From a virus: 22,419 nt of DNA. Below the pieces are notes generated by a model that was not told where the DNA came from, made no database searches, and saw nothing but the letters and a program-made list of their open reading frames with translations. Both the position numbers and the translations under genes were made by a program. Shown piece by piece: positions 1-19,018 of the stretch (its first letter is position 1; every line of letters begins with the position of its first letter). Location: positions 1 to 22,419 of the IMG/VR virus record IMGVR_UViG_3300009514_000096; one strand, 5' to 3'.

Positions 1-3000
1 CCGACCAATGACTTGGCTATTGCCATAGTCGTACCCGATGGAGTGACGATAAGGTTTCCTAGATTGTTAACGTAGAAGTCTGAGTAAACTGTATCGGTGG
101 CGTAGGTAAGTCTAAATTGAGCTGTATTATCATTACGGAATATATCCATAGGTCTTGATGGAGTGGAAGTTGCAACACCAATAAGCCCGCTATTGAGTAT
201 CCGCATAGCTTCTGTTGCACCGTTATTTCCTACCTGGAAGATATGATCAGCTCCGGCAGCTCCGACTCCTGTAGTCGTTTTGTAGGTAAGAGTTGAAGTC
301 GTGCCTGTACCGCCAATGATGAGAGGGGTTGTGAGGGTTGTGGCTAGACCGACACCGATATTGACAGTTCCTGCAGAGCCATCCACATAGAATAAAGAAA
401 CTCCCTTCCCATCACCGATTGCGAAGTCTCTAAAGCGGGTTGTGCCGCCTAAATAACCAACACCGTTAACGCTGATGATTCGATCATCGCTATCACCAAG
501 CTGCGAGGATAATGTCACATTCCCGGCCGCACCTGATTGCCATAGATTTCCTAGTCTCGTAGACCCATTTGTTGAATCAAACAATAATTGTGAATTTGTC
601 TTTGGAGATAGTGAGCCTGTTGCGGAATTTGCAAAGAGTAGAAAACAAGTTGTGTCTGCTGATTCATCAGCAACCGTAACCGTTGCGGCATTTCCTGTGG
701 TGTTTTGGTTAAGCGTGGGGAATGTACAGTTGGCTAAGTTGCCAGAAGTCGGAGTTCCGAGAATTGGAGTGACAAGAGTTGGACTTGTATTAAACACAAC
801 CTTATCAGTTCCGGTTTCGTCTGTAAGAAGCCCTGCCAAGACAGATGAAGCAAAGGTGTTAAGGTCGTCTGCAGGATCAAGTTTGTTACGAGTGATTGCC
901 TGTCCGCTGATTGTGATGTAGTCAGGCGTTCCTGCTAGAGTAACGTCACCTGTGTTTGTGCCAGAATGAGTGCCGCCGCTAAGAGTGGTTGTGGTTCCGT
1001 CCGTTGCTGTTATCGTAGCTGATGTGGCAGGTGCGGTTAATGTAACCTTGTTGATACTTGTGGCTGTGGCAACTCCAAGAATTGGCGTAACAAGCGTCGG
1101 TGACGTATCGACAACAAACTTCGTACCAGTGCCAGTCTGGGAAGCTATAGATGTGGCATTTCCAACTGATGTGATCGGGCCTGTTAGGTTTGCGTTAGTA
1201 GCGTCATTCCCATTTAACTTCTGAATAGCCTCTAGGATTGAGTCTGTTGCTGCCACAGTTCCAGCACCTGAGACGTATCCGGTGAGAACCTTCGCAATTA
1301 CAGGTGCGTTTGTGAGGGTGGTTGCGTTGCCTACCGAGGTAACATCACCTGTCAGATTAGCGTTTGTAATCACTGTGGCTGCAAACGACCCCGTTCCTGA
1401 ACCTGTAACGCCTCCAGTAAGCGTAATGGTCTGATCACCTGAGTTTGTACCAGTTAAGCCCAAGTCAGTTTTGAGGGTTGCCAAAGTATTTACTTCCGGA
1501 ACACCCGTTCCTGCTGTCTTGCGGTAAATAAGACTCGATGTGGTCATGTCTGCCATCTTTGCAAGTGTCACTACGCCGTTTGCGATCGTTGTGACATTGG
1601 AATCAATGGGTCTTGTGACATCGCCTGTATACGCAAACGGAAGTGCGGTTAATACCTCAACATTCCCCGTTGCTGCTGTGGCGCGACCTAGAATAGAATC
1701 TGTGGCCATCGTTGCCATCTTTGCTAGGGTTACAGCGTTATTTGCTATCGTGGCAGCAAAAGACCCCGTACCACTTCCGGTTACATCTCCAGTAAGAGTT
1801 ATGGTTTGATCACCGCTATTTGTGCCTGTGAGACCAAGATCAGTTTTTAGTGTTGCTAGGGTATTAACCTCGGGCACACCAGTACCGGCGGTCTTACGAT
1901 AGAACACACTGCTTGTAACCACATCATCCATCTTGGCGAGGGTAACGGCTTTATTTGTAATCGTGGTAGCGTTCCCTACGGAAGTAACAGGGCCGGTAAG
2001 ATTGGCGTTGGTAGTAACATTTCCAGCGGTAAGCCCTGAAGCCGTCCCTGTGATGTTTGTCCCTACCAAAGTAGATGGAGTTCCAAGATTTGGCGTTGTG
2101 AGAGTCGGGCTTGCCTGCATGACGAAAGTGGTTCCGGTTCCGGTCTGGGACGCAACAGAGGTGGCGTTACCCACGCTCGTTATCGGGCCAGTCAGGTTGG
2201 CATTGGTTATTACTGTCGCCGCAAAGGAACCTGTACCGCTACCAGTAACTCCACCGGTGAGCGTGATTGTTTGGTCTCCGGTGTTCGTGCCGCTTGAAGT
2301 CCCTGAAAATGTACCTGATTGTGTTGCGAGCGTTCCGAGTCCGAGGGTTGTCCTTGCATCCCCAGCCGTAGCATCATCTATCAAGGAAGCCCCGAAAGTT
2401 GTGATGCCTTTTATTCGAGCAAGTTCTGTTAGAGAGGGGTAGGTTGCTACCGCCGCAGAAGCTAGGTTTTTGCTTGCATCTGTGATTACTATTTCAGAAG
2501 CTGTCAGTCCTGAAAGATTTAGCCCTGTTCCTGCTATGGAGTTACCAGTCCAAGTGGCAGCAGCTGTTCCTGTGTCTTGGTTTCCAATAAAAGAATCAGC
2601 GTTTACCTTTAACGAGCCATTACCAACTCCAGATACAAGAACTGTTCCTACTCTTGAGACATAAGCACCAGAAGTTCCCGACGGTCTAACATTGACCAAA
2701 TCTCCCGCTACAGTAGTAGAAACCCAAACCGCATCACCCGTTGAGAAAGCTGAGGTATTGATACTTGTAATCAGTCCAACGGCCATCACTTGCCCGAAAG
2801 CATTGTCGGCAATATCTTGAAATGTTACCCCCACCACCGGTAAGGTAGTTAAGCTATTAGCTTTGGCTAAGGAAATATTTGGCACATTTCCTGTTGAGCC
2901 CGAAACATACACCGGCTTACCTTTATCGATCTGCGCTCCTGAAGTATTTTTGGCTATAAAAACATTGTCTCTGACAAAAACTAAATCAGACCCCATCTCG

Positions 3001-4019
3001 TTCTGTTGCTTTAGTCTGGTGATTCCGTGGAAGGTGCTAGCGTATAGGTTCAGTGTCCCTGCGGTTGGGCTAGATGGGTCAGATGATTGGTCAACAAGGT
3101 TTATATATCCAGCCCCTGCTGTGCCCGCGACTGCTACTGCTCCTGTAGTTAATAGGTCTGTGTCGGTATCAAAAGTGAATGCAGTATCTCCCTCTAAAGT
3201 CCCGTCACCAGTCCATACACCGACTTGGTTATCTACAGGAGTCCCGACTTTGGTGACGTATCCAGATAGGTCTTGATCGCCCGTGTTCGTGCCGGAAAGA
3301 TTAGAAGCCGAGACCGTCCCGGCGATAATCATACCGGTGGCGTTCCAGTGAGCGGCCAGAGTACCGGCTATCGACACGCCGATCTCGCTTACGTCCTTGC
3401 GATAGAACCCCGTGGATTGCTCGTTGTTGAATGAGATCCCAGGGACAGAAACATTACCGTCGGGGTTGGCAAAGACTCCTGCGGCTGTGATGGATGACAA
3501 AGAGTTCCCAAAACCACCGTAGAACGTGGCGAGGTTGCCACTTTGAGACCCGGGGAATGGATTACCCCTAATCTCAAGCCCCGTGTCCGTAGCGGAGGTG
3601 ATGTTAAGGCGTAGCTTCGTGGTGGTGGTTAGGGCTGTCCCGCCGATAGAAGCGGCGTCGTTCGTCTTGTCGTAGAGAAACCCGGCGTCCTCTCCAACGA
3701 CCCCGTTGTCGTCGAATAGGACACGTTTATCCGTTCCACCGGTGATCGGAGTCGTGGATATGGCAAGACTTGATGCACCAATTTCTGTAACGGTTCCGGC
3801 ATCATCTTTGGTGTAAAGAGCGCTCGTCCCAGATTTGTCTTTTAGATAGAGTTTCACTCCGGTTGTAGATGGGGTTGATGGGTCAGACCCTCTTTCATAG
3901 AATAGAATGCTCTGCTTGGCTACGCGCAGATCGGAGCGCCCATCAATAGATGATTCGCCGTCAGCCCAGGCGTGAGTCGATAGAAGCAAACAAATACTTG
4001 CGACGATTCTTTTAAACAT
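1..4019 (-). CDS. Giant repeat-rich tail-fibre-like protein with signal peptide (C-terminus off the window)
   Basis: The frame is open from an ATG at 4019 to the left edge, giving at least 1339 residues with no stop. The start overlaps the stop of the upstream coiled-coil gene (TAATG). Residues 1-20 form a Sec-type signal peptide: a Lys/Arg start, a hydrophobic core and a cleavage-like AWA before DGES. The rest is low in Cys and charge and rich in Gly, Thr, Ser, Asn and Val. Residues 50-75 have the 'LYLKDKSG...LYTKDDAGT' style seen at phage fibre N-termini. Residues about 355-465 look like a beta-rich fibre domain (GKPVYVSGSTG, GDAVWVS). After that come repeats of 'NLTGxVTSVGNAT', 'GTNSGDQTITLTG' and 'SPTLVTPILGTP' type, common in phage fibres. 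A C-terminal chaperone such as Peptidase S74 may lie beyond the window. A signal peptide is not expected on an ordinary virion fibre. Fibre-like nature is fairly sure; role and localisation are not. Confidence 0.85.
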   Translation of the reverse strand, partial: MFKRIVASICLLLSTHAWADGESSIDGRSDLRVAKQSILFYERGSDPSTPSTTGVKLYLKDKSGTSALYTKDDAGTVTEIGASSLAISTTPITGGTDKRVLFDDNGVVGEDAGFLYDKTNDAASIGGTALTTTTKLRLNITSATDTGLEIRGNPFPGSQSGNLATFYGGFGNSLSSITAAGVFANPDGNVSVPGISFNNEQSTGFYRKDVSEIGVSIAGTLAAHWNATGMIIAGTVSASNLSGTNTGDQDLSGYVTKVGTPVDNQVGVWTGDGTLEGDTAFTFDTDTDLLTTGAVAVAGTAGAGYINLVDQSSDPSSPTAGTLNLYASTFHGITRLKQQNEMGSDLVFVRDNVFIAKNTSGAQIDKGKPVYVSGSTGNVPNISLAKANSLTTLPVVGVTFQDIADNAFGQVMAVGLITSINTSAFSTGDAVWVSTTVAGDLVNVRPSGTSGAYVSRVGTVLVSGVGNGSLKVNADSFIGNQDTGTAAATWTGNSIAGTGLNLSGLTASEIVITDASKNLASAAVATYPSLTELARIKGITTFGASLIDDATAGDARTTLGLGTLATQSGTFSGTSSGTNTGDQTITLTGGVTGSGTGSFAATVITNANLTGPITSVGNATSVASQTGTGTTFVMQASPTLTTPNLGTPSTLVGTNITGTASGLTAGNVTTNANLTGPVTSVGNATTITNKAVTLAKMDDVVTSSVFYRKTAGTGVPEVNTLATLKTDLGLTGTNSGDQTITLTGDVTGSGTGSFAATIANNAVTLAKMATMATDSILGRATAATGNVEVLTALPFAYTGDVTRPIDSNVTTIANGVVTLAKMADMTTSSLIYRKTAGTGVPEVNTLATLKTDLGLTGTNSGDQTITLTGGVTGSGTGSFAATVITNANLTGDVTSVGNATTLTNAPVIAKVLTGYVSGAGTVAATDSILEAIQKLNGNDATNANLTGPITSVGNATSIASQTGTGTKFVVDTSPTLVTPILGVATATSINKVTLTAPATSATITATDGTTTTLSGGTHSGTNTGDVTLAGTPDYITISGQAITRNKLDPADDLNTFASSVLAGLLTDETGTDKVVFNTSPTLVTPILGTPTSGNLANCTFPTLNQNTTGNAATVTVADESADTTCFLLFANSATGSLSPKTNSQLLFDSTNGSTRLGNLWQSGAAGNVTLSSQLGDSDDRIISVNGVGYLGGTTRFRDFAIGDGKGVSLFYVDGSAGTVNIGVGLATTLTTPLIIGGTGTTSTLTYKTTTGVGAAGADHIFQVGNNGATEAMRILNSGLIGVATSTPSRPMDIFRNDNTAQFRLTYATDTVYSDFYVNNLGNLIVTPSGTTMAIAKSLV
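1374..1571 (-). repeat. Fibre repeat unit, copy B (198 nt)
   Basis: This 66-codon block encodes VTLAKM, then TSSLIYRKTAGTGVPEVNT and LATLKTDLGLTGTNSGDQT, ending in GSGTGSFAAT. It lies exactly 375 nt from copy A at 1749-1946. The proteins are nearly identical while many third codon positions differ, so the duplication is old and held at protein level. Confidence 0.8.
1749..1946 (-). repeat. Fibre repeat unit, copy A (198 nt)
   Basis: Partner of the 1374-1571 block in the same frame, with a 375-nt period (125 residues). A third, partial copy covering only the GTNTGDQTITLTG to GTGSFAAT segment lies at about 2214-2291. Such modular repeats lengthen fibre shafts and recombine easily. Confidence 0.8.
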
Positions 4020-4885
4020 TAGCCCCTTTTGAGTGCAGCCAGTTGTCTTGCGACAGACTTCTGTTTGACGAGTTTTTTAAATCTCAACACATCGATTTGA
4101 TGCACCTTTTTTTCTTCCTCAAACGCAAGGCGCTCGCGTCCGTGAGATTTCATTTTTGCTTCATATTCGATTCGCTCGGATTGAAGACTCTCGATTTCCT
4201 CTTTTAGTGATGCCCGAGCCCTTTTGCTATCGGATAGGATATTTTCGAGTTCCGCGTTCTTATTCTTCGCCAGAGCCAGTTCGTCGGATACGGCCTTAAT
4301 CTCATCTGCTTTTTTATTGTTCTTCGCAATCAGATCAGCCTTCAGAGTCTCGATATCTTCTTTGAGAGTTTCAAAAGCCCTTCTCTCGGAAGCCGCAACG
4401 ACCATCGCTTTGATATTGTTAGAGTGTTCGTCTTTAATTGCGCCCAGAGAGATATTAAGGTTTTCGATTCTAGCCTTGACTGCCCTGTCTTTATCTTCCA
4501 ATTCAATCCGAAGCGCTTTGAGATTATCAGACGCCTTCTCCGATGCTTTCCGGGCAGTCTCAAGTTCGTTCTTATGACGCGCTATTTCTCGCAACTGGTC
4601 GCGGTGTTTATCCCCCTGCTCCCTGAGACAATCTTGACCTTTCGATATGTCCGAATTCAATCCATCTACAATACGCTTCAAGTCTTCTGATTCTTTGCGT
4701 AATTGCTTTATAGATGGGTCGAGGCGGTCGCGCTCAGATCGAAAACCGACTATCTGGGAATTGATTTCATCCAAGATTTTTTGAGACGATTTTATAGACG
4801 ATTCAAGAGATTTCTCTTTGATGGTAAGCCGAGCAACCTCCGCAAGCAGCTTTGTGACTTTTTCCTTTTCGATGTTCGGCACCAT
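4019..4885 (-). CDS. Long coiled-coil protein of unknown function, 288 aa
   Basis: Not a family I recognise. Almost the whole protein is predicted coiled coil: Glu, Lys, Leu, Arg, Ser and Ala with heptad-like spacing, almost no Pro or aromatic residues, and a basic tail (FKKLVKQKSVARQLAALKRG). No signal peptide or membrane segment is seen. The ATG at 4885 has a good SD (AAGGAG) that overlaps the stop of the preceding gene, and its own stop overlaps the fibre start, so the two are probably translationally coupled. It could be a rod or adaptor for the fibre or an assembly chaperone. That is inferred from position only. Confidence 0.8.
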   Translation of the reverse strand: MVPNIEKEKVTKLLAEVARLTIKEKSLESSIKSSQKILDEINSQIVGFRSERDRLDPSIKQLRKESEDLKRIVDGLNSDISKGQDCLREQGDKHRDQLREIARHKNELETARKASEKASDNLKALRIELEDKDRAVKARIENLNISLGAIKDEHSNNIKAMVVAASERRAFETLKEDIETLKADLIAKNNKKADEIKAVSDELALAKNKNAELENILSDSKRARASLKEEIESLQSERIEYEAKMKSHGRERLAFEEEKKVHQIDVLRFKKLVKQKSVARQLAALKRG

Positions 4886-4892
4886 TATCTCC

Positions 4893-5240
4893 TTACGCCG
4901 TGATTTCAGAGGATTTTACGATTCCTCTTACAGTTCCAGTCGTGTTTGCGTTTGTCACTTGAATCCGAATTTCATCACCGGCTCGCAAGTTCATTTCCCC
5001 TTGAGGCCGCCAGACGTGATCCTGCTCACCGACAAAATCGACGCTGTTTAAAACCGTGTCGTAGTTTGCCCCGTTTGCTGAGTCAATCGTAATCGTGATC
5101 GTCTCGGTAATCGCGACCGATGCTCGAATCGAGATTGATTCCAGTTTTACAGAACGCCCAAAGTCTGTCGTGTAAGACAGGGCGCCGGCGGACAAATCCT
5201 GAGAAAATGTCTTGTCCGCCTTCAGCGCTGGTCTCCACAT
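4893..5240 (-). CDS. Small beta-rich virion-like protein, 115 aa
   Basis: The frame is open further upstream, but that part lies inside the 5243-5548 gene. I chose the ATG at 5240, which directly follows that gene's TAA (TAAATATG) and suggests coupling; no strong SD is seen. The protein starts MWRPALKADKTFSQDLSAG. It is rich in Thr, Ile, Val and Asn with alternating hydrophobic residues (ITETITITIDSANG), suggesting a beta sandwich. It has no signal peptide, unlike the similar-sized secreted proteins of this cassette. Two WRP motifs occur (residues 2-4 and about 80). Possibly a virion, fibre-accessory or glycan-binding protein; the function is unknown. Confidence 0.7.
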   Translation of the reverse strand: MWRPALKADKTFSQDLSAGALSYTTDFGRSVKLESISIRASVAITETITITIDSANGANYDTVLNSVDFVGEQDHVWRPQGEMNLRAGDEIRIQVTNANTTGTVRGIVKSSEITA

Positions 5241-5242
5241 AT

Positions 5243-5548
5243 TTATGCCGTCAATCCAAGTATTGGACTGGTATAAATCAACACTTTGCTGATGTCTGTG
5301 GCAGTTGTAAGGTATAAACCCTTTACCGGAACAGGATTTGCAGGACTCCAATATATAGATCTGTGGTTAGCGACATCCGAGTCGGCTTGGAATACCAGCT
5401 CTCCGCCAAGCGCATCATGCAATACGCATGACCAAGTATCGGCAGACGCAATAACCACAATGCTGCTGATCGCCATAGCACGATTGACGAGCGACGTCGC
5501 GCCGGCGGTGTCGAGAACGATTGGATTTGTAACTAATTTGTTTGCCAT
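5243..5548 (-). CDS. Small virion-like protein of unknown function, 101 aa
   Basis: The ATG at 5548 has a strong SD (AAGGAG, 6 nt upstream). The sequence (MANKLVTNPIVLDTAGATS...; SSIVVIASADTW; PVKGLYLTTATDISKVLIYT) resembles small beta-barrel proteins found beside phage capsid and fibre genes: an N-terminal strand, an 'A-D-T-W' turn and a C-terminal 'GLYLT...VLIYT' hairpin. The resemblance is by style only, and I cannot name a family. It sits between the sulfotransferase and the 115-aa protein with no real gaps. Confidence 0.75.
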   Translation of the reverse strand: MANKLVTNPIVLDTAGATSLVNRAMAISSIVVIASADTWSCVLHDALGGELVFQADSDVANHRSIYWSPANPVPVKGLYLTTATDISKVLIYTSPILGLTA

Positions 5549-5561
5549 TTCATACTCCTTT

Positions 5562-6191
5562 TTAAGAGACTCTCGCCCCTCGTACTTTTGAGGTATTAAA
5601 GTCCGGTTCGATTGATAAAAACTCAGAGAGTTTCTTCATAACTGCTGTCGGATCTTCACAAAACTCTTCATATTTTGTGATGAAACAGTTTGGGTTATCC
5701 TTCTTTGACAAAACGAGGTTGGTGCATTTCTCGTAGCGTTTGATTAAATCCTCTTCGGATGTGCCTTCGTTCCAGTAGGCTTTACGCATGGATGATAGGG
5801 TAGCTTCGCGTTCTCTCCAGATTAATGCCCACTTGGGGGAAAGGAGTTTATTGAACGGCCCGAATTGACAGCGAGTAAAATCAACCCATTTATCACCGAT
5901 ATATTTATATGAGCCACCACAAAATTGTTCATAGATGTCAGGCCATGAGTTTCGAAGAATGGAGATGAAGCGATTACGTTCTTCCTTCTCCATCTTCCAG
6001 TTTAAAATTGGGTTGAACCACTTCTTTTCCTTACCTTCTTCACCGGACTTGATGATATCTTGAAGCCATGCGATGAAGTAAAGTGGGCCTTCTTCGTTTC
6101 CCATGCGGATTTCAGGATGTGTTCCAATAGTATCTGCGAAGATCGTTGTTCCACTTCGCTCACATCCAGAGACAAGTAGGTAGCTAGGCAT
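5562..6191 (-). CDS. Sulfotransferase family protein (PAPS-dependent), 209 aa
   Basis: The N-terminus has the 5'-phosphosulfate-binding loop of the sulfotransferase superfamily: a beta strand YLLVSG followed by CERSGTT (residues 10-16). A second family hallmark, an Arg followed about eight residues later by Ser (WREREATLSSMRKAYW, residues 125-140), fits the 3'-phosphate-binding site. The family moves sulfate from PAPS onto sugars, lipids or proteins. Beside a glycosyltransferase and an O-antigen polymerase/ligase, the likely acceptor is a surface glycan (inference). I chose the ATG at 6191, preceded by GAGG and overlapping the glycosyltransferase stop by 8 nt; a TTG at 6200 is less likely. 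The protein is short for the family but both cofactor motifs are present. The segment is visibly more AT-rich than the capsid genes. Confidence 0.85.
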   Translation of the reverse strand: MPSYLLVSGCERSGTTIFADTIGTHPEIRMGNEEGPLYFIAWLQDIIKSGEEGKEKKWFNPILNWKMEKEERNRFISILRNSWPDIYEQFCGGSYKYIGDKWVDFTRCQFGPFNKLLSPKWALIWREREATLSSMRKAYWNEGTSEEDLIKRYEKCTNLVLSKKDNPNCFITKYEEFCEDPTAVMKKLSEFLSIEPDFNTSKVRGARVS

Positions 6192-7023
6192 AGACCTCAA
6201 CCTTCTTTTTGTGTTCGTTCATCTGCTTGCAATGAACCCAGTTGTTTAAGAGACTCTTAAATCCGTGTGATTTTAGGAGTGGGCCGTATGTTACGTCCGG
6301 CCCCATGATACCCATGAATTTATTCTGCATGAGCGTCGATCGAAAGAGATGGCCTCGGATTAAGGTGCAGCCAAAGGTTGTTGCCCCGACTTCCTCTACA
6401 CCACCGTGTTGTTTATCCACATAATAGACTTCGTATTCCGTGTTCACAAAACCGTTAGATACAACGTGACGAGGAAAGCAGTTCCAAGCAAGGGTCTTAC
6501 CACGATGACGACCATTCGGACGATACGGTACACGACCGCAGATTTGACCTATGTGGTTATTCTCCATGTATGGAAGGAGCTGAGAGTACGCCGTCTCCGG
6601 GGCTATGATATCGTCCTCAAGAAGTAGGACGTAATCAGGGTCGTTTACATACTCACGTGAGAAGTTATATCCATCGGTGATCGCTTGGTTGCGGTCTGTC
6701 CAATTCCCACCCTTTTTATCCCCACCATTCACCACCTGGTGTTCATGGTTAATGACAAGTGTCTTGGAGTGGAAACCGGAGAGTTTTAGAAACTCCTTCT
6801 TGAGCTTAATGGCAAATGCCTTCTTGCCCTTTGGGAAACCGAGCCAGAGAATGTGCGTCTTACCTTTCGGGAACTTCATCTTATGGAAGTTCTTTAACCA
6901 CACGTTGAACATCTGCTCACGAGCAACAAACATCGTGAGTACTGTGAGTTCAGGGCGGCCACGTTTTGAGATAACGGGTAGAACGTCTACTCCGTCACCA
7001 GCACAATAGATACCATCCCACAT
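6184..7023 (-). CDS. GT-A fold glycosyltransferase, 279 aa
   Basis: A Rossmann-like N-terminal half (LTVLTMFVAREQ; KTHILWLGF) leads to LLLEDDI at residues 133-139, a DxD-type metal and nucleotide-sugar site. The C-terminal part has GPDVTYGPLLKSHG (241-254) and WVHCKQM (262-268), where family members place the acceptor Asp and a metal-binding His. It should transfer a sugar from a nucleotide donor; donor and acceptor cannot be read from the sequence. No membrane segment or signal peptide, so probably cytoplasmic. The start has an excellent SD (CCGGAGGAAAT then ATG). It overlaps the sulfotransferase, so the two probably act on the same glycan. Confidence 0.85.
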   Translation of the reverse strand: MWDGIYCAGDGVDVLPVISKRGRPELTVLTMFVAREQMFNVWLKNFHKMKFPKGKTHILWLGFPKGKKAFAIKLKKEFLKLSGFHSKTLVINHEHQVVNGGDKKGGNWTDRNQAITDGYNFSREYVNDPDYVLLLEDDIIAPETAYSQLLPYMENNHIGQICGRVPYRPNGRHRGKTLAWNCFPRHVVSNGFVNTEYEVYYVDKQHGGVEEVGATTFGCTLIRGHLFRSTLMQNKFMGIMGPDVTYGPLLKSHGFKSLLNNWVHCKQMNEHKKKVEVYA

Positions 7024-7035
7024 ATTTCCTCCGGA

Positions 7036-7485
7036 CTATCTTTTTTCTTGAGTATAAAGATACGCGGTGACGGTTGTTCCGGTCGCGTTCCCGGTGATGC
7101 CTTCAGCCACAAAACGAATGTACTTTATTGACGGAACAGTCATATTTCCTGCGCTCGCATAAGGCGTGGATGTCGTTGCAAATATGTCATTTGGTACGAC
7201 TGTCTGCATCGTAGCAAACGTAGTGGATGCCCCGTCATACGATCCTTCCATCGACATACGTATCGCAGACCCTTCTGGAGTTGCTGCCTTCGTAGCTTTA
7301 AACCAGTACCCCATCTTATCTACCGAGCCGACATTGAACACACGGCTTGTAACCGTGGATCCTGTACCTGATACGGCTACGCCGTCAAATATAATTTCGG
7401 ACTTGCCGCTGGACGCAAAAGCATTGGTTCCGATGAAGATCGTTATTGCAGCTATTACAAATATTGCGTTTATCTTTTTAAGCAT
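7036..7485 (-). CDS. Secreted beta-rich protein with signal peptide, 149 aa
   Basis: Residues 1-25 are a clear Sec signal peptide (MLKK, a hydrophobic core IFVIAAITIFIG, and the cleavage-like motif AFA before SSGKSE). The mature 124 residues are rich in Thr, Ser, Gly and Val with alternating strands (SEIIFDGVAVSGTGS; YIRFVAEG; TTVTAYLYTQ), suggesting one beta-sandwich domain. There are no Cys residues. The ATG at 7485 follows AGGGGAA and overlaps the O-antigen polymerase/ligase stop by 8 nt. I do not recognise the family; the style resembles small phage virion or carbohydrate-binding modules. Export with such a fold suggests a periplasmic or surface role. Confidence 0.8.
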   Translation of the reverse strand: MLKKINAIFVIAAITIFIGTNAFASSGKSEIIFDGVAVSGTGSTVTSRVFNVGSVDKMGYWFKATKAATPEGSAIRMSMEGSYDGASTTFATMQTVVPNDIFATTSTPYASAGNMTVPSIKYIRFVAEGITGNATGTTVTAYLYTQEKR

Positions 7486-8806
7486 ATTGTTCCCCTGTGT
7501 TTTCTATGTTGTGAAGAAGTCCGATGATGGTTAACGAGTAAAAAAGCGTGGCCCCGATCTGGAACACGAACGTTCCGCCGGCTGCGATCGAAACGCACAG
7601 GAAGCTCGCTAGTAAGGGTCTACGTTCTGTCATATCCCCAAAGAAGCAGCTCCTTTTGAAGATCCAAACAATCGCTCCGATCCACAAGAAAAGCCCGATC
7701 ATGCCCGAGTTGTAAGCGCCTTCAAGATATTCGTTGTGCGCCTGATGAAACGTGTTCGGATGGTTCTTGTAAATCTTCCAGAGATTGATCGCGCCATTCG
7801 GAACGCCGGAACTTTTCAAGAAATCAGGCGTCCATTCTTTCGGATTTAGGCTTCGGGATTTTGGATATCGGCGCAGGATCGCGTGGAACGGATTCACCTT
7901 CTTGAGATTGACGTAAATATTTGGATGGTCTATGTGATAAACGTATTTGAAACTTCCGAGGCCGCGGCCGGTGAGCGGGTATGAGTTTGGTATGTTCCTA
8001 TCCAGAGGATTTCTTATATCGTTTGCGATATGCCGCCACTGAATGAATCGCTCGTTGTCTCCGACAAACTTCCGGACTTGCGGAGACGTGAAGCATCCGA
8101 CCGCGAGGCCGATTCCGAGGATTGTCATAAGTGACGCAAAAGTGATGAACCGACTCCGGCTTCGCATCCCGAAATAGAAGACCATTGAAACCAAGAGCGC
8201 GCCGCTCGCGATCTGACTGTCCGGAATCAGCGCTCCGGCCAGGATCACAATAGCTTCTTTCCACATGCGAAGGTAGAAAGCCATCGGAAGCATCATCGCG
8301 ATAAAAGGAGCGACAAGCGTCGGGTTGCCGATGAATCCAGCCGTCCGGCCTTTCGGATCTGATACTGACAAGGCGAAAAACTGATCAATCCAGAAGTGTT
8401 GAAGAATGACGTAAAGTGCCATGAAGCTCGCGCACCAGACCATGACCTTCATAATCATCCGTCGGTCGCAGTATTGAAAATTCGCGCTTGAGAGCGATAC
8501 CAGATATACCGAAAAAACTGCGATATAAGCAAGCGGCTTCCAGGCCCAGAAGTTCGAGACGTTGATGCCGACCAGTGTCACATCAGGCGCTGGCGAGAAT
8601 GCAACGCTGATCGGAATGTAGGCCAAGAGCGCCAAGAACCACGGATTGCGGAACGGCTTGAACTGGCCTTTATAGAGCGCTGCTGTACCGAGGAATAATG
8701 CTGCCGCAAAAGCGACAAGCATTTGTATCTCGCGCATATCGCTTCCAGGATAGAAAGCGAAAGGCGTCGAAATAATTCCAAAGTACAGCAGTGCCATATA
8801 AAGCAT
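7478..8806 (-). CDS. O-antigen polymerase/ligase family membrane protein (Wzy/WaaL-like), 442 aa
   Basis: About eleven hydrophobic segments surround one long hydrophilic loop (residues about 250-355), the layout of the Wzy_C/WaaL superfamily. The loop has GRGLGSFKYVY and ends in HNEYLEGAYNSGMIGL (from His 357), matching the family 'H-x-x-[YF]-L-x...G-x-x-G' signature; in WaaL this loop His is needed for activity. The family joins or polymerises lipid-linked glycans at the periplasmic face of the inner membrane. The frame is open to 8878, but that part lies inside the upstream gene. The ATG at 8806, 4 nt past the upstream stop, is the better start. Lysogenic phages sometimes use such enzymes to change host O-antigen. 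Ligase versus polymerase cannot be decided here. Confidence 0.85.
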   Translation of the reverse strand: MLYMALLYFGIISTPFAFYPGSDMREIQMLVAFAAALFLGTAALYKGQFKPFRNPWFLALLAYIPISVAFSPAPDVTLVGINVSNFWAWKPLAYIAVFSVYLVSLSSANFQYCDRRMIMKVMVWCASFMALYVILQHFWIDQFFALSVSDPKGRTAGFIGNPTLVAPFIAMMLPMAFYLRMWKEAIVILAGALIPDSQIASGALLVSMVFYFGMRSRSRFITFASLMTILGIGLAVGCFTSPQVRKFVGDNERFIQWRHIANDIRNPLDRNIPNSYPLTGRGLGSFKYVYHIDHPNIYVNLKKVNPFHAILRRYPKSRSLNPKEWTPDFLKSSGVPNGAINLWKIYKNHPNTFHQAHNEYLEGAYNSGMIGLFLWIGAIVWIFKRSCFFGDMTERRPLLASFLCVSIAAGGTFVFQIGATLFYSLTIIGLLHNIENTGEQYA

Positions 8807-8810
8807 GGGT

Positions 8811-9344
8811 TTAGAAGGTTCCCTTAACCCAATCTTCGCCGTTGGCGCCAGTCGCCGCGGGAGTACGCATTTCTTCAATGTACCAGCCGCTCGCAGTTCC
8901 GACGATCTTCAACGTGCTGCTCGAAGATGCCGGTGATGTGACACGACTTCCGAATCCGACGATATGCACCGCAGCCGATGAAGTTCTCACCGAAAGCGTC
9001 TGGTTCGTCGCGACTAGGAATTCATACGTCAGGCCTGCAGCCGCAGTCGGTAGGGTTAGCGTGTAACCCACGCCACCCGGGACCGGACCAGTCTGGGATC
9101 TAAGAACCCAAATGTTTCCAGTTCTGGCTGCCGTGACCGAAGAGGGCGTGTCAGCAGACGAATCAATCGTATGCACCGTCCGCTTCATTCCCTGCGTGTC
9201 GAAGTTCGTGAACGACCACGCACCCGACGAGTTTTCGCTCGTATACGGATCGCGATAGACATCGCCATCCGCCGCGTATGCCTTCCCGGAGATTAAACAA
9301 ATCCCGAAAAGGAGGAACGCGATTAGTGTGAATCGCTTTTTCAT
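8811..9344 (-). CDS. Secreted virion-like beta protein with signal peptide, 177 aa
   Basis: I chose the ATG at 9344, which follows AAAGGAG and opens a clean Sec signal peptide (MKKR, core FTLIAFLLFGICLI, AYA before ADGDVY). The frame is open upstream to 9440, but only through capsid sequence and the hairpin at 9364-9393. The mature part includes SVTAARTGNIWVL and a stretch of 'YTLTLPTAAAGLTYEFLVA' style that is common in phage fibre and capsid-associated beta domains. So it is a virion-style protein with an export signal. It lies directly after the major capsid gene, where a head-completion or tail gene would be expected. Function unknown. Confidence 0.8.
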   Translation of the reverse strand: MKKRFTLIAFLLFGICLISGKAYAADGDVYRDPYTSENSSGAWSFTNFDTQGMKRTVHTIDSSADTPSSVTAARTGNIWVLRSQTGPVPGGVGYTLTLPTAAAGLTYEFLVATNQTLSVRTSSAAVHIVGFGSRVTSPASSSSTLKIVGTASGWYIEEMRTPAATGANGEDWVKGTF

Positions 9345-9363
9345 GTTCTTCTCCTTTGGTATT

Positions 9364-9393
9364 CCCCCGACCGTCGCACAGGACGGTCGGGAG
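9364..9393 (-). other. Strong hairpin in the major capsid 3' leader region
   Basis: A 12-bp inverted repeat (CTCCCGACCGTC / GACGGTCGGGGG on the minus strand, one G-U pair) closes a 6-nt loop. It lies 14 nt past the capsid stop and about 20 nt before the next start. No T-run follows, so it is not a standard intrinsic terminator. It may protect the capsid mRNA 3' end or serve as a processing site (inference). Confidence 0.6.
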
Positions 9394-9406
9394 GTTACGG
9401 TTTTGT

Positions 9407-10354
9407 TTAAACGCCCGTAGAGGCGAATCCTGCGCGCCAATTATCGGCACCGCAGTCAAACAGCATACGACCGGCGAAGCAATACGCCTCAATGCCGTAA
9501 TCCACCCACGAAGTGAAGTGGGGCCGCGCAGACCAGATCATTTTCAGATGACCGAGCTGCGGGAATATGATGTACCAAGCCGTGTCGGAACCCGCCCGAC
9601 CCTGGCCGGCGGCGAGCCACCACCACTCAACCACCTTGTAATTGAACGTCTTGCCCTTGCCGACGAACCGGTTGATATCACGAGTCGTCACGCCCGGACG
9701 TTCAGACGCACGTTCATTCATCACGCGAGCCACCGCACCGCGCAAATTGGGCGGGATAAGCAGGATCGGATCCCCGTAAGGCATGATGGGAATGCCGTCC
9801 TCGGCAATGAAGTTATCCGAAATCTGCGTTTCCGCAGCTTCCAGATTGTCGTGACTGAACGCGCCGGAGAGAAGATTCGAGTAGGTCGTACCCGTCTCTT
9901 CGGCATTCTTCGGATGGTCGGTGTCGAACAAGAACTGACCGTCCGGGCCGGCAGTAGAGAAGCCGGTGTTTAGGACAGCCGAGGTTGTGCGCTCGACTTT
10001 CGCATTTCCACCACGACCCATAGCCTTCGCCGTGCCGACTTTGGACAGGATTGCCTGCTCGTCCATATCGACCGCTTCAAATGAAACCTTGAAGCGCTTC
10101 AGGCGTTTCACCTGGGTGAAGGTCTTCGGGTACCCGCTCACCGGGTCCGCGAATCCACCGTCATCGAACTCAGTGGAGTCTTCCCATTCGCCAAGACCTG
10201 ACATGCTGTTGGTGATGTAATTCAGGGTCTTGTCGTCAATCGTTTTGAAGCCGGCCTCTTCATAAACCTGCTTCTGCTCATTGTAGGCGTTGAACATGTA
10301 CTCGTCATAAATCGGCGTGTACAGTTGCGCTACTCTGTCTCTATTGGTTGCCAT
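9407..10354 (-). CDS. Major capsid protein, HK97 fold, Mu gpT-like, 315 aa
   Basis: Forms the icosahedral shell. The sequence matches the Mu gpT-like major head subunit family in pattern: an N-terminal alpha helix (VAQLYTPIYDEYMFNAYNEQ), a strand-rich region, the family hallmark FLFDTDHP (residues 141-148), 'ILLIPPNLRGAVARVMNE' (about 195-215) and a C-terminal 'FTSWVDYGIEAYCFAGRMLFDCGADNW'. The length is normal for the family. There is no obvious protease-removed delta domain; the separate scaffold candidate could take that role. The SD-like AAAGGA lies about 10 nt before the ATG. Order after scaffold and decoration-like genes supports the call. Codon third positions are GC-rich compared with the glycan genes downstream. 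Confidence 0.93.
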   Translation of the reverse strand: MATNRDRVAQLYTPIYDEYMFNAYNEQKQVYEEAGFKTIDDKTLNYITNSMSGLGEWEDSTEFDDGGFADPVSGYPKTFTQVKRLKRFKVSFEAVDMDEQAILSKVGTAKAMGRGGNAKVERTTSAVLNTGFSTAGPDGQFLFDTDHPKNAEETGTTYSNLLSGAFSHDNLEAAETQISDNFIAEDGIPIMPYGDPILLIPPNLRGAVARVMNERASERPGVTTRDINRFVGKGKTFNYKVVEWWWLAAGQGRAGSDTAWYIIFPQLGHLKMIWSARPHFTSWVDYGIEAYCFAGRMLFDCGADNWRAGFASTGV

Positions 10355-10384
10355 TGCGTTAGTTCCTTTCCCTTTGAACCTGGT

Positions 10385-10870
10385 TTACGATGCTGCGGCG
10401 AAGTCGAAGTGGCCGATCGCGTAGCCGAAAGAATTGGCTGCGAGAGCCGCTGTCGAAATGTCGATAGCGTCGATGAAAAATCCAAGACCAAGTGTTACCT
10501 GATCACTATTGTCGATTCCGTCTTCGGACTGTAAATCGACAATTTCGCCGACATCGGTTGCCTGGACGAGAACATTGTCCTCATCGGGAACCATGAAGTC
10601 GTACTGAGGCAGCGCCGGGATGACTTCAGTGTCAAGACCGCCGGTGCCTGCCGCTGTATTCTCGGCTGCGGTGCTGGCTTCGTTGCAAATACCGACGAAC
10701 TTGGGGTCTGCTCCAAGCTGGAAGGTCGTTGCGAGGGCCAAATAACCGCTCGTCAGAATTACCGCGTCACCGATGGCATAAACCACGCCGGTCGTGTTCA
10801 GGTATGTCCTGATCTTGCAGAGTTGGTTCAGGAGTCGGAACCCCGGAACGTACTTGTTGGGTGTGGACAT
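10385..10870 (-). CDS. Capsid decoration / head-fibre-like protein, 161 aa
   Basis: The ATG at 10870 has a strong SD (AAGGAG). The protein runs MSTPNKYVPGFRLLNQLCK, then a compact beta-barrel-like section (GVVYAIGDAVILTSGYLALAT), an acidic region (DEDNVLVQATDVGEIVDLQSEDG) and a hydrophobic C-terminus (GYAIGHFDF). The 'IGDAVILTSG...A' and 'GICNEA' pattern resembles small phage capsid decoration proteins, which lie just upstream of the major capsid gene in many phages. Position between scaffold candidate and capsid supports this. Identity at family level is inferred, not proven. Confidence 0.7.
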   Translation of the reverse strand: MSTPNKYVPGFRLLNQLCKIRTYLNTTGVVYAIGDAVILTSGYLALATTFQLGADPKFVGICNEASTAAENTAAGTGGLDTEVIPALPQYDFMVPDEDNVLVQATDVGEIVDLQSEDGIDNSDQVTLGLGFFIDAIDISTAALAANSFGYAIGHFDFAAAS

Positions 10871-10888
10871 TTAATGCTCCTTCTGTTT

Positions 10889-11062
10889 TTAGTATTTCGA
10901 CAGATCGATTTTAATCACAGAAGGAAGTTTGGTATATATATGGGCTCGGCCCTTATATCCACACACATCACAGTCGTTCGGTTGAGACGAAACAAGGTAA
11001 AACTGCTTTGTCCGGCATCTGCCGCAAAGGTAATACGCTTGTTCGTCTCTCGTTACGCTCAT
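10889..11062 (-). CDS. Zinc-ribbon microprotein, 57 aa
   Basis: A small gene that fits exactly between the scaffold candidate and the decoration-like gene. Its ATG overlaps the scaffold stop as ATGA, and its TAA lies 18 nt before the next ATG. Cys13-x2-Cys16 (LCGRC) and Cys31-x2-Cys34 (CDVCG), 14 residues apart, form a typical zinc ribbon; the C-terminus is KLPSVIKIDLSKY. There is no catalytic signature. It may bind nucleic acid or support structure in head assembly. The Cys spacing and coupling make a chance frame unlikely. Confidence 0.75.
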   Translation of the reverse strand: MSVTRDEQAYYLCGRCRTKQFYLVSSQPNDCDVCGYKGRAHIYTKLPSVIKIDLSKY

Positions 11063-12288
11063 GCGCCTGCGCGTTCCATTCTTCGCTTCTGCATCTTTTT
11101 GAAGTCCTCGAGATTCTTGCCTGGAAAACTCTTTTTGAAGAGCTCGAATTGAGCCTTCTCGATATCGCCCATCTTCGTTTCCCTGGCACCGTTCCCGTTG
11201 GAATTCAATCCTTCATCAATTCGGGCAAGTCGTTGCCTTTCGGCCTCCGCTGCCTCGCGAGCAATCCGCGCGTCGCGGTCTTCTTGCGACTCTCCAGCTT
11301 TCCCGCTAGTTTTCATACGCTTTTCGATTTCCTCGACAACCATTTCCGGACCGTTCTCGGCCAGAAGGTACTTATCTGGATTCGATTGGATGATTTCAGC
11401 CGCGAGCTTCGCTTTGGGATTCTCGGCGAATATGGTTGCCTGAATCTCACGCTCAGTCTTGCCTTCGGCCTGTAAAGCAGACACCCGTGCGGTTACGTTC
11501 AGCTCCGGATGCTTGGCTTCCGCCCGCGATCTGGAACCTGCCTGCTTGGCGATTATTGCCTCGGCCTGTCTGTCGGCGTCGCTTCCACCGTTAAGACGGG
11601 CTGCATCGGCATCGCGTTCGCGTTCCCGGCGTAGTTCCTGCTTGGCAAGCCAGCGGTTCGCGCCGGCCATGTCCTCGATCATCCATTCGGTCAGGTCTTC
11701 ATCGGACATCTCGCGCCGCTTCTCCTTCGGGAGAGCCTTGTCTGCTTCGACATACTTCTCCACGCGGGCAGCTTCGAGCTTCTCGATTTCGTCCTGAGTC
11801 TCCCCAGACGCATTTCCGAGCTTCTTGAGTTCGGCCTCAAGCGCTGCGATCTTCTCCTTGTCTTTGGATCGTTCGTTGCGCTCAGCCTTGAGCTCGCCGG
11901 CGATCTGGTCTATCCGTTTCTGGATATTCGCTTCGCGCTCGGCTTCCTTCGCGACCTTTCTGGCCTCGACGATTTTCTGCTTCTGGGCATAGTCGTCATC
12001 GGTCAGCTCTTCCTCTTTTGCTTCGAGGATTCGCTTCTCTTCGGCTTCATTCGACTTCTGTTCGGCCTCGACGGCGGCGGCTTTCGCGGCCTTCTGCGCG
12101 TCATCGAGTTTGTCATCGGGGGTCTCGAGCAAGGTCTTGGCTTCTTTTGCCTTCGCCTCAGCCTGTACCTTTGCGTCCTCTTCCACCTTTTGTTCAGGCG
12201 TAAGGGCAGCAATGCGCTTGGATTCCTTCTCGGTCTCCAGGTCTTTCAGCGCTTTTTCACCGAGTTCAATCGTCCGTTCGATAGTCAT
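11059..12288 (-). CDS. Putative scaffolding protein, coiled coil, 409 aa
   Basis: Very rich in Glu, Lys, Ala, Arg and Gln. The N-terminal half (about 1-190) is predicted coiled coil (KVQAEAKAKEAKTLLE; EARKVAKEAEREANIQKRID). The second half is more mixed, with a region ending in 'KAQFELFKKSFPGKNLEDFKKMQKRRMERAGA' (about 375-409), a short basic helical tail of the kind scaffolds use to bind capsid subunits. It has no Cys and almost no aromatic residues. It lies upstream of the capsid and downstream of portal, the usual scaffold position. The ATG at 12288 has a strong SD (AAGGAG). Scaffold is by composition and position, not sequence identity. Confidence 0.75.
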   Translation of the reverse strand: MTIERTIELGEKALKDLETEKESKRIAALTPEQKVEEDAKVQAEAKAKEAKTLLETPDDKLDDAQKAAKAAAVEAEQKSNEAEEKRILEAKEEELTDDDYAQKQKIVEARKVAKEAEREANIQKRIDQIAGELKAERNERSKDKEKIAALEAELKKLGNASGETQDEIEKLEAARVEKYVEADKALPKEKRREMSDEDLTEWMIEDMAGANRWLAKQELRRERERDADAARLNGGSDADRQAEAIIAKQAGSRSRAEAKHPELNVTARVSALQAEGKTEREIQATIFAENPKAKLAAEIIQSNPDKYLLAENGPEMVVEEIEKRMKTSGKAGESQEDRDARIAREAAEAERQRLARIDEGLNSNGNGARETKMGDIEKAQFELFKKSFPGKNLEDFKKMQKRRMERAGA

Positions 12289-12350
12289 AGATCACTCCTT
12301 GTTGTTTGTCTTCCATGTGGAGGCCGCCACAAGTCGGGATCTTCTTCCAT
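12285..12350 (-). CDS. Possible 21-aa leader peptide before the scaffold gene
   Basis: In the 97-bp gap between two genes, an ATG at 12350 opens a 21-codon frame (MEEDPDLWRPPHGRQTTRSDL) whose TGA overlaps the scaffold ATG as ATGA, the coupling used by many genes here. An AAAAAGG precedes the ATG but is very close. The frame has no stop for some distance upstream. It could be a coupling leader or chance. Confidence 0.3.
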   Translation of the reverse strand: MEEDPDLWRPPHGRQTTRSDL

Positions 12351-12385
12351 GCCTTTTTGGAGCCCAGGCAAGGGGGCTTTAAAAC

Positions 12386-12754
12386 TTAATCCGCCGCTGC
12401 TTCCGCTTCTTCGAGCGCGTCTTCGAGCTTGGCGACTTTCTTCTTCAAATACTTTGAATCCGGATCAGCGTCGAGCTTCTTCTTGGCTTCGGCGAGCCGC
12501 TTGCGGAGACTCGATACCTTATCCTCGACCGGAGGCGCTTCGACGGCCTGCTTGGATGCACCGCGCGACCGATGCTCTTCGAGCGTCTTGATTCGAGCGT
12601 TCTCTGCTGCGATAGCCGCTTCCTTCTCGATGGCGTTTTCCTTCAAAACCTCGTCTCTGGACATGAACTGCCGTCTCGGGTCATCCTTTTTCGGGATGAC
12701 AACCACCGGCTTGCGCTTTGCTGTGATACCACCGACCTCTTCTTTTGTTGCCAT
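12386..12754 (-). CDS. Small charged helical protein, 122 aa
   Basis: Unknown family. The N-terminus is basic (KRKPVVVIPKKDDPRRQFMSRDE) and the rest is a Lys/Glu/Ala helix (SSLRKRLAEAKKKLDADPDSKYLKKKVAKLEDALEEAEAAAD) likely to be coiled coil. The ATG at 12754 has a strong SD (AAGGAG) that overlaps the preceding gene's TGA; a TTG two codons upstream is less likely. Between portal and scaffold it may be a minor head-assembly protein. Confidence 0.75.
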   Translation of the reverse strand: MATKEEVGGITAKRKPVVVIPKKDDPRRQFMSRDEVLKENAIEKEAAIAAENARIKTLEEHRSRGASKQAVEAPPVEDKVSSLRKRLAEAKKKLDADPDSKYLKKKVAKLEDALEEAEAAAD

Positions 12755-12756
12755 TT

Positions 12757-13029
12757 TCAATCTCCTTCTTCGTTTATTTGTTTTTCGGTCTTTCTGATGA
12801 AGCTGCCGAATAGATCAAGCTGCATTTTGCAGTCGTCCAATAGGGCCTTAGCAATCTGCGCCTTGACCAGATTTCCTTCCTCAACGGCCTTGTTCACCTT
12901 CGTTTGAAGGATCCCACGCCGGTCCTTCTTCAAAAAGTTGACCCAAATCAACCACTCCGGGCTCGTCAGTAGCGCTCTAGCCTGAGCCAGTTGCTCGCGG
13001 AGCTCTTCTTTGAATTTATCGTCCATCAT
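12757..13029 (-). CDS. Small helical protein following portal, 90 aa
   Basis: Unknown family. An alpha-helical, charged protein (FKEELREQLAQARALL; VNKAVEEGNLVKAQIAKALLDDCKMQLDLFGSFIRKTEKQ) with one Trp pair (PEWLIWVNF). The ATG overlaps the portal TGA by 4 nt (ATGATG; a second in-frame ATG follows at once). No membrane segment is visible. Its close link to portal suggests a head or packaging accessory role. Confidence 0.8.
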   Translation of the reverse strand: MMDDKFKEELREQLAQARALLTSPEWLIWVNFLKKDRRGILQTKVNKAVEEGNLVKAQIAKALLDDCKMQLDLFGSFIRKTEKQINEEGD

Positions 13030-15272: not shown

Positions 15273-15296
15273 TCTTCGGTCTCCGGTTAAATGCGG

Positions 15297-15367
15297 CCGG
15301 AAGGAAATAAAAAAAGGGAGCAAGCTCGTTAGAGCTCGCCCCCCCTCGAGGGCTTACTTCCTTCCGG
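15297..15367. repeat. Outer inverted repeat enclosing the terminator (14 bp arms)
   Basis: Arms CCGGAAGGAAATAA (15297-15310) and TTACTTCCTTCCGG (15354-15367) are complementary at 13 of 14 positions; on minus-strand RNA the mismatch is a G-U pair. They flank the terminator hairpin and include part of its T-run. A third hairpin, ATCCGTG/CACGGAT, lies at 15371-15395. Confidence 0.8.
15309..15343 (-). terminator. Intrinsic terminator between the 100-aa gene and portal
   Basis: On the minus strand an 11-bp stem (GGGGCGAGCTC / GAGCTTGCTCC, two G-U pairs) with loop TAAC is followed by C and seven T. This is a strong rho-independent terminator. It ends 37 nt before the portal start, so portal must be transcribed by readthrough or a promoter I cannot see. 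Confidence 0.85.
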
Positions 15368-15370
15368 ACT

Positions 15371-15395
15371 ATCCGTGGGGGATCAGCTCACGGAT
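15371..15395. repeat. Short inverted repeat upstream of the terminator
   Basis: Perfect 7-bp arms ATCCGTG (15371-15377) and CACGGAT (15389-15395) with an 11-nt loop containing GATC. It lies between the stop of the 100-aa gene and the outer repeat. Possible operator or mRNA hairpin. Confidence 0.5.
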
Positions 15396-15403
15396 TCAAA
15401 GAT

Positions 15404-15706
15404 TTAATTCTTGCGACCTCGCAATGCGTCGAAAAACTTTCCGTTGCCGTTCGGTGTGATAATCTTTTTCTTCTGAGCTTGCATCTTGAGCGCGTAGCGG
15501 AAAGCGTTGAGCGCGTCGCGGACTTCGATTTCAACCAGACACGCTTCCTCGTAGTTCTTGATTCGGATGGAGACGTTCTTGATTTTTCCGGATTCTGGAT
15601 CGCGAGTGACGAAAAGCGGCAGCTCATCGACATTCATAAACAAATCCGGATTCTGCTCAAAGAGCTCGGCCTTCGTTGGCTGACGCTGTTCTTCGCCTTC
15701 GCTCAT
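15404..15706 (-). CDS. Small protein between terL and portal, 100 aa, possible moron
   Basis: Unknown family. An acidic N-terminus (MSEGEEQRQPTKAELFEQNPDLFMNVDELPLFVTRD), a middle with strand and helix (SIRIKNYEEACLVEIEVRDALNAFRYALKMQAQKKK) and a basic end (ALRGRKN). The ATG at 15706 has only AAGGGGG about 13 nt upstream. It has its own candidate promoter (15732-15759) and terminator (15309-15343), so it looks like an independent unit. It could be a packaging accessory or an inserted moron gene. Confidence 0.75.
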   Translation of the reverse strand: MSEGEEQRQPTKAELFEQNPDLFMNVDELPLFVTRDPESGKIKNVSIRIKNYEEACLVEIEVRDALNAFRYALKMQAQKKKIITPNGNGKFFDALRGRKN

Positions 15707-15731
15707 AATTTTTAAATTCCCCCTTGTTGAT

Positions 15732-15759
15732 ATTCTGACAGGTATTGCAAACCGTTCAA
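15732..15759 (-). promoter_or_regulatory. Candidate promoter for the 100-aa gene
   Basis: TTGAAC (15754-15759), 16 nt, then CAGAAT (15732-15737). The -35 region TTGAACGGTTTGCA matches TTGAACAGTTTGCA of the candidate promoter before the terminase genes at 13 of 14 positions, with the same spacing to its -10. It overlaps the terL stop codon. The repeated sequence and spacing argue for function; it is a prediction. Confidence 0.55.
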
Positions 15760-18017: not shown

Positions 18018-18215
18018 TCAGAGCGCCGTATTCTTTCCGCTGTCCGGAGCGGTGTCTTCGCCTGCGTGCATACGGCTCCAACATCCGCAGTCTATTCTCG
18101 GATGACCGCAGGCGATATATTTTCCTCCGAGAACCCATGCCTGATTTTTGTAATCGTAGCCGTGCATCAGGCGACCGTCTTGAATCTGAACCTCGTTGAA
18201 TGATAGGCGTAACAT
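18018..18215 (-). CDS. Small Cys/His-containing protein, 65 aa
   Basis: The ATG at 18215 overlaps the upstream stop (TAATG) and has a GAGGGAA SD; an upstream in-frame start lies inside the previous gene. It starts MLRLSFNEVQIQDGRLMHGY. Cys36-Gly-His and Cys43-Gly-Cys45 (IACGHPRIDCGCW), with nearby His50, could bind zinc. Last gene before the terminator. Family and function unknown. Confidence 0.7.
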   Translation of the reverse strand: MLRLSFNEVQIQDGRLMHGYDYKNQAWVLGGKYIACGHPRIDCGCWSRMHAGEDTAPDSGKNTAL

Positions 18216-18634: not shown

Positions 18635-18635
18635 G

Positions 18636-18914: not shown

Positions 18915-19018
18915 CAGAAACCCACCGGGATCATGTCGTGCTTTACGATCTCGTAATAAATCCAGCCACTGACCAAGACAATCAAAACTACATACGCCAA
19001 GATCATCCAGTTCTTCAC
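18914..19018 (-). CDS. Single-span membrane microprotein, 34 aa
   Basis: A GTG start overlaps the upstream stop as GTGA and the TGA overlaps the next ATG, so it fills the gap exactly. The protein MKNWMILAYVVLIVLVSGWI is one hydrophobic helix followed by YYEIVKHDMIPVGF. Small size and one span could fit a holin-type or inner-membrane spanin part, but no lysin is nearby. Coding status rests on tiling and hydrophobicity. Confidence 0.55.
   Translation of the reverse strand: MKNWMILAYVVLIVLVSGWIYYEIVKHDMIPVGF

Follow-up and report, generated by a model that had tools for sequence, protein, structure and literature searches.

Gene organization of the window

The DNA analyzed here (the window) is a fragment of 22,419 nt (~22.4 kb) from an uncultured virus, positions 1 to 22,419 of the IMG/VR record IMGVR_UViG_3300009514_000096. 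All late-operon genes are on the minus strand. Upstream of the major capsid protein (MCP) gene are genes for TerS, TerL and portal, as well as genes that appear to be scaffold-like and decoration-like, so the window carries a podovirus-like head module. Two further genes are also on the minus strand. The product of one, upstream of the terminase genes (18215-18658), is small, has a predicted signal peptide (MKKLILVIYILLMSVNANA) and no family match, and may be related to small outer-membrane-assembly lipoproteins. The other (19015-19650) encodes a GroES-like co-chaperonin of double length (phrog_3188, 1.7e-11, matched in two stretches), and GroES-like genes were also found in the relatives L010 and L013.

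The cassette that follows the MCP gene is listed in Table 1. A first-pass annotation had described a tight operon of glycan enzymes and exported, virion-like proteins in this place, and the order it gave was recovered gene by gene, with small or negative gaps between the genes. Shine-Dalgarno-like sites precede the starts of the signal-peptide (SP) proteins, and the ATG of the giant fibre overlaps the stop of the preceding gene. The start of v2 was inferred from an alignment, and the match of the giant fibre to PF19264 (4e-4) was below the cut-off. The same annotation was also correct that the cassette is placed where tail genes should be: in longer relatives the adaptor, nozzle and collar genes are found further downstream.

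Table 1. The MCP gene and the genes of the cassette, in order of transcription, with positions in the window
Gene product	Position	Strand	Features
MCP (major capsid protein)	9407-10354	minus	PF10124 Mu-like gpT 1.2e-8; phrog_371 major head protein 2e-11; anchor gene upstream of cassette
Exp1, predicted exported beta protein, 177 aa	8811-9344	minus	predicted signal peptide MKKRFTLIAFLLFGICLISGKAYA/AD; conserved Wzy partner
Wzy/WaaL/PglL-superfamily polytopic membrane protein (probable), 442 aa	7478-8806	minus	Wzy_C, WaaL fold, profile match
Exp2, predicted exported jelly-roll protein, 149 aa	7036-7485	minus	predicted signal peptide MLKKINAIFVIAAITIFIGTNAFA/SS; behind Wzy in the window's lineage
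Glycosyltransferase-like protein, 279 aa	6184-7023	minus	Pfam GT2 E 0.013, below cut-off; window only
Sulfotransferase, 209 aa	5562-6191	minus	Sulfotransfer_3 PF13469 1.8e-8; window only
Small protein v1, 101 aa	5243-5548	minus	no signal peptide; window only
Small protein v2, ~115 aa	4893-5240	minus	no signal peptide; kept in lineage
Coiled-coil protein, 288 aa	4019-4885	minus	no signal peptide; coiled coil at equivalent position in relatives
Giant fibre, predicted exported, >1339 aa	3-4019	minus	predicted signal peptide MFKRIVASICLLLSTHAWA/DG; DUF5907-like repeats; truncated by window end

Signal peptides were called with our own rule (a basic n-region, a hydrophobic core and small residues at -3/-1), accompanied by controls, and not with SignalP. 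Exp1, Exp2, the giant fibre and the nozzle protein of the relatives satisfied this rule for a Sec type I signal peptide. The rule is lenient, scoring 12% of shuffled N-termini as positive, and more weight was therefore given to conservation and to comparisons with head genes and with control phages. SP-like N-termini were found in 48 of the 84 genes after the MCP gene vs 2 of the 108 genes up to and including it. Alanine, which the rule favors, was present at -1 in 54 of the 56 predicted cleavage sites.

Identity of the Wzy/WaaL-type enzyme

The Pfam family Wzy_C (PF04932) was matched by all eight members of the Wzy group that were scanned (best 1e-12) and scored above the curated cut-off in 7 of 11 contigs. 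The window protein taken alone gave an E value of 0.04 and 14.1 bits, under the cut-off of 31.7 bits. In its AlphaFold2 model (pLDDT 76.6, pTM 0.77) the best fold match was the WaaL O-antigen ligase 7tpg (Z 20.6, rmsd 4.5, 349 residues aligned), followed by FtsW/RodA (Z 11-12), and the sequence profile also retrieved the same WaaL entries (4.4e-9). R253 was invariant in 12 Wzy sequences and H357 was present in at least 90%; in a second alignment R247 and H307 were invariant in 11 sequences. An HN motif (H357-N358 in the window) was found in all 39 Wzy proteins. The conserved Arg and His would correspond to R288 and H338 of E. coli WaaL. Because of the Wzy_C matches, the WaaL fold, the profile match and the retained Arg and His-Asn, the window Wzy is very probably a member of the ligase/polymerase/oligosaccharyltransferase superfamily with its active-site residues intact.

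WaaL and PglL cannot be separated by BLAST (PMC3643930), and likewise the sequence of the window Wzy gives no indication of its acceptor. The PglL_A motif (PF15864) was absent from the Pfam hits of the eight members scanned, at E values up to 1; PilO also lacks this motif (PMC3643930). A search of viral contigs with the single window Wzy sequence returned nothing, and Wzy alignments were needed to find relatives.

Conservation within the window's lineage

The close relatives of the window, identified among viral contigs by capsid proteins 50-77% identical, were metagenomic fragments throughout. The order MCP, SP protein, Wzy/WaaL-family membrane enzyme, SP protein recurred in independent contigs. 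By our count, the MCP gene was followed by an SP protein gene and then a Wzy-like gene in 13 of the 16 virus types that span this slot. In this lineage there is normally another SP protein 3' of the Wzy-like gene, and then v2, the coiled coil and the exported fibre. No Wzy was found at the slot in L041/L042, L044 and L050, and other SP proteins were encoded nearby.

The glycosyltransferase and the sulfotransferase had no relative in any of the lineage contigs examined, and both were rejected as part of the core. Other members of the lineage have different genes, or none, between exp2 and v2, which indicates that this is a variable cargo spot. The sulfotransferase assignment exceeded the curated cut-off (PF13469, 35.4 bits vs 27), and the name glycosyltransferase is tentative because the family match is weak. 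In other words, the core of the gene order is conserved and the full three-enzyme cassette is not.

No match for the MCP, the window Exp1 or any Wzy tried was found in cultured or deposited phage genomes. When the MCP alignment was used to look for a host, the matches in MAGs reached just 28-33%, unusable as host evidence.

The SP protein and Wzy pair in unrelated phages

Searches with Wzy alignments extended to unrelated phages that differ in capsid and tail type, and showed that the pair of an SP protein and a Wzy is present in many uncultured tailed phages, usually just after the capsid genes. These carriers included podoviruses with T7-type tail proteins (L128: phrog_394, phrog_376; capsid phrog_3437), podoviruses with Hc3 nozzles (L170), phages with another capsid type (L130 and L135) and sheath-bearing myoviruses (L146). 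Most of the podoviruses have the pair downstream of the capsid genes and ahead of those for the tail adaptor or tubular proteins. Cultured phage records contained no Wzy relative with the queries tried.

Among the 37 Wzy genes whose upstream neighbor was complete, 36 had an SP protein encoded in that position, separated from Wzy by 20 nt or less or overlapping it in 34 of those 36. The lenient SP rule sets a baseline of 43 positives among 137 other late-operon genes of similar size, about one third. The sole exception was a second Wzy copy in L133, which has two Wzy genes (1159-2388 and 5986-7122), just the latter with the usual SP neighbor. A Wzy of 435 aa in another phage contig (L166, 4926-6233) stood alone, with no capsid genes or exported partner in view.

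One carrier, L126, has a capsid of the window's lineage (48% identical), and its Exp1 and Wzy were nearest to those of the T7-like contigs L134, L128 and L125. Identities to T7-like contigs were 58/42% for Exp1 and 40-49% for Wzy, vs 24% and 31% to the window. That the L126 pair resembles those of T7-like phages more than those of the lineage to which its capsid belongs shows movement as a unit. In addition, the distances of Exp1 and Wzy were correlated (Mantel r 0.39, p 0.0001), and inside the window's lineage the Wzy proteins were as far apart as between lineages. Together these comparisons show that the pair travels and evolves together, and that it has been transferred jointly at least once.

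The predicted exported partners

The Exp1 proteins are 139-256 aa long, and most have a common beta-rich domain (TLP..GL.Y.F ... W); no glycosylation-site motif was evident in their sequences. The SP partner in the myoviruses is a different protein, similar to the cement proteins of phages (PF09956, 1.8e-4, slightly below the cut-off). Its mature part is homologous to the neck fibres of the Anabaena cyanophage A-1(L) (36% across 105 aa), and against the solved structure of A-1(L) gp82 the E value was 8.5e-4. The domain is thus shared with the A-1(L) neck fibres gp81 and gp82, but A-1(L) gp81 has an ordinary N-terminus with no signal peptide. This homology indicates that, at least in the myoviruses, a virion fibre-type domain with a signal peptide is paired with Wzy. 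The window Exp1 was considered as a homolog of this cement-like partner and rejected, as the profile comparison aligned the signal peptide only. The SP partners are therefore not all homologous, which is a poor fit to a single ligase-acceptor specificity.

The fold of Exp2 is a generic jelly roll: the best PDB match was XepA (Z 11.4), and numerous jelly rolls of unrelated proteins scored nearly as well. A SUMO-like identity for Exp2 was discarded because the PDB profile matches look like chance.

Predicted signal peptides on tail proteins

In longer relatives of the window, the tail module downstream encodes an SU10-type adaptor, a nozzle-like protein, a collar-domain fibre, an Mtd-domain protein and more. 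Nozzle proteins in the L004 and L043 contigs and in L117 matched Hc3 families, that of L118 matched a virion structural family, and that of L032 aligned to L031 at 50%. The protein upstream of the nozzle matched SU10_adaptor or phrog_399, in agreement with a nozzle of the P22 gp10/Hc3 kind. The adaptor, Hc3 nozzle and collar fibre are thus in the same order as in the SU10/P22-type podovirus tail.

A signal peptide was predicted for the nozzle in all five contigs that contain one (for example MIKRLLVIFTLLFATTVHA/QE and MRKLVISIILLVFISPVALA/QE), and in none of the five for the adaptor directly before it. The five nozzle N-termini keep the SP pattern though their residues are not conserved. Collar, Mtd-like and long fibre proteins of this lineage also have predicted signal peptides, and head proteins do not. 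In contrast, none was found on the nozzle and fibres of SU10, P22 and LUZ24, nor on the tail proteins of C75C1 and ctSlx955. The deposited podovirus ctLwi270 (L119, MW202554) has signal peptides on its collar protein, identified by eye, and on a lectin-like protein and none on its nozzle, and is a partial form of this pattern.

Nozzles with a signal peptide were found again in L130, L132 and L135. In the T7-like carriers of the pair, the tail tubular proteins are ordinary and have no signal peptide, which shows that the pair can occur where tails are not exported. The lineage of the window thus combines two features, the cassette and the predicted exported tail, that are separable.

The tail region of one relative (L030, IMGVR_UViG_3300035698_003617) is followed, on the minus strand, by an ORF of more than 3200 aa with SNF2-type helicase matches, possibly an ejected protein; pentapeptide-repeat-like proteins are encoded near it.

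Possible functions of the cassette

The reading preferred here is that the core of the locus is a two-gene late cassette, in which a small fibre- or decoration-like protein would be exported by Sec in vivo and an inner-membrane glycan ligase is encoded right behind it. This ligase, of the WaaL/Wzy/PglL superfamily, would have its active site facing the periplasm. It may transfer a lipid-linked host glycan to the exported phage protein, much as PglL-type enzymes act on the adjacent pilin. By analogy with bacterial PglL-pilin pairs, a probability of about 0.45 is assigned to the proposal that the pair consists of a phage-made exported protein and its own dedicated periplasmic glycan ligase. It is favored by the gene order and its conservation, the adjacency, the rule-based signal peptides, the ligase family and predicted fold, the catalytic-type residues and the joint transfer, as well as by the kinship of the myovirus partner to virion neck fibre and cement proteins and the predicted signal peptides on the five nozzles, with none on the adaptors or on the tail proteins of the control phages. 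Counting against it are the PglL_A motif that was not found, the lack of a glycosylation-site motif and the three virus types of the lineage with no Wzy at the slot.

The closest known arrangement is that of PglL or PilO/TfpO with a pilin gene (PMC3643930), where a Wzy_C membrane enzyme that retains the superfamily residues is likewise encoded next to, and in the same orientation as, an exported protein. Twenty-one of 31 pglL genes adjoin their pilin targets (PMC3643930), and adjacency to an exported acceptor candidate was found here in 36 of 37 cases. The phage pairs differ in that they belong to a late operon, the partner is fibre- or decoration-like rather than a pilin and is a candidate acceptor, and PglL_A was not found. 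Phage enzymes that glycosylate phage structural proteins are known from mycobacteriophages, whose glycosyltransferases modify capsid and tail tube proteins (Freeman 2023, as cited in PMC12363180 and PMC12619734), and if the reading of Exp1 is true this would be a further likeness. The mycobacteriophage enzymes are taken to act in the cytoplasm, whereas the enzyme here would be a periplasm-facing ligase with predicted exported proteins.

The main rival, judged somewhat unlikely, is that Wzy changes the polymerization or ligation of the host O-antigen or capsule late in infection, so that released progeny do not adsorb to debris or to cells that are dying, or so that rivals are kept out; the exported protein would then assist Wzy or block the surface on its own. 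Serotype conversion is the known role of Wzy in phages D3 and epsilon15 (PMC4815439); these Wzy proteins are likewise phage-encoded, polytopic and Wzy-type, that of epsilon15 also has a Wzy_C domain (PMC4815439), and the window genome additionally encodes a glycosyltransferase-like protein and a sulfotransferase. However, D3 and epsilon15 are temperate, and their wzy genes lie after the tail genes, outside the late operon and on the opposite strand, near the integrase, accompanied by an inhibitor of the alpha-polymerase and by no exported partner. A serotype-conversion locus of this kind, outside the late operon near attP or an integrase and with a polymerase inhibitor, was not found here: Wzy is inside the late operon after the MCP gene, with an SP partner. 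No tyrosine integrase was found in 11 contigs, which may be incomplete. Surface remodelling also leaves the near-constant SP partner unexplained.

In a further reading, which is quite unlikely, the exported proteins are virion parts that undergo maturation in the periplasm and attach to heads at lysis, and Wzy has another target or is incidental. This would account for the signal peptides predicted on the nozzle, collar, Mtd-like and long fibre proteins of the lineage, and the myovirus partner has neck fibres as its relatives, but the strict adjacency of Wzy would be unexplained and the T7-like carriers of Exp1 and Wzy have no signal peptides on their tail tubular proteins. The N-terminal segments could instead be hydrophobic segments for assembly or membrane contact, with the clustering of Wzy an accident of cargo. 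The rule-based calls and the 12% of positives among shuffled N-termini allow for this, yet it is highly improbable given the basic n-regions and hydrophobic cores, the alanine at -1 in 54 of 56 sites (favored by the rule), the pattern kept by five nozzles of unconserved residues and the 36/37 adjacency.

Under the preferred reading of a dedicated periplasmic ligase, the lineage of the window may follow a wider program, since the nozzle, collar fibre, receptor-binding-like proteins and long fibre also have predicted signal peptides. Distal tail parts with signal peptides could therefore be modified outside the cytoplasm and meet heads only at lysis; for a nozzle in the periplasm and a filled head, mixing at lysis is one possibility. 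A complete split assembly in some tailed phages, with DNA-filled heads, portal and adaptor made in the cytoplasm, and nozzle, fibres and decoration proteins exported by Sec, glycosylated by the phage ligase in the periplasm and joined to the heads at lysis, is considered unlikely.

These results revise the first-pass annotation in several respects. Joint function of the cassette, as it proposed, is supported for Exp1 and Wzy, which are adjacent in 36 of 37 cases, occur in unrelated phages and have moved together at least once. The case is weaker for Exp2, seen in one lineage, and the two enzymes without counterparts in any relative, the glycosyltransferase and the sulfotransferase, lend it no support. 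The search for the same order in other contigs, which it proposed as a check, gave MCP, SP protein, Wzy and SP protein and did not extend to these two enzymes. Of its three options, virion parts that pass through the periplasm gain support in the window's lineage, as the nozzle itself has a signal peptide in five of five relatives. The annotation knew of no described system with this layout; no precedent was found here either, and the nearest parallel is the PglL-pilin pair. The literature search, from which most subscription papers and preprints were absent, gave no precedent for signal peptides on phage tail proteins or for virion operons that contain an O-antigen ligase.

Should the two genes indeed encode an exported protein and the glycan ligase dedicated to it, phages would glycosylate proteins in the periplasm, a process for which no description was found, and the cassette would supply compact oligosaccharyltransferases together with natural acceptors. 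The signal peptides predicted for nozzles and fibres in turn question whether the assembly of tailed phages is wholly cytoplasmic.

The glycosyltransferase-like gene and the sulfotransferase may have been added in the window genome, perhaps to alter the glycan. Since neither was found in relatives, the phage-made sulfated polymer suggested in the first-pass annotation would be at best peculiar to the window genome. The podovirus ctSlx955 (L110, MW202743), which has a related terminase and neither Wzy nor signal peptides, contains annotated glycosyltransferases and methyltransferases between its capsid gene and nozzle (7108-15939), and such genes may therefore recur at this slot independently.
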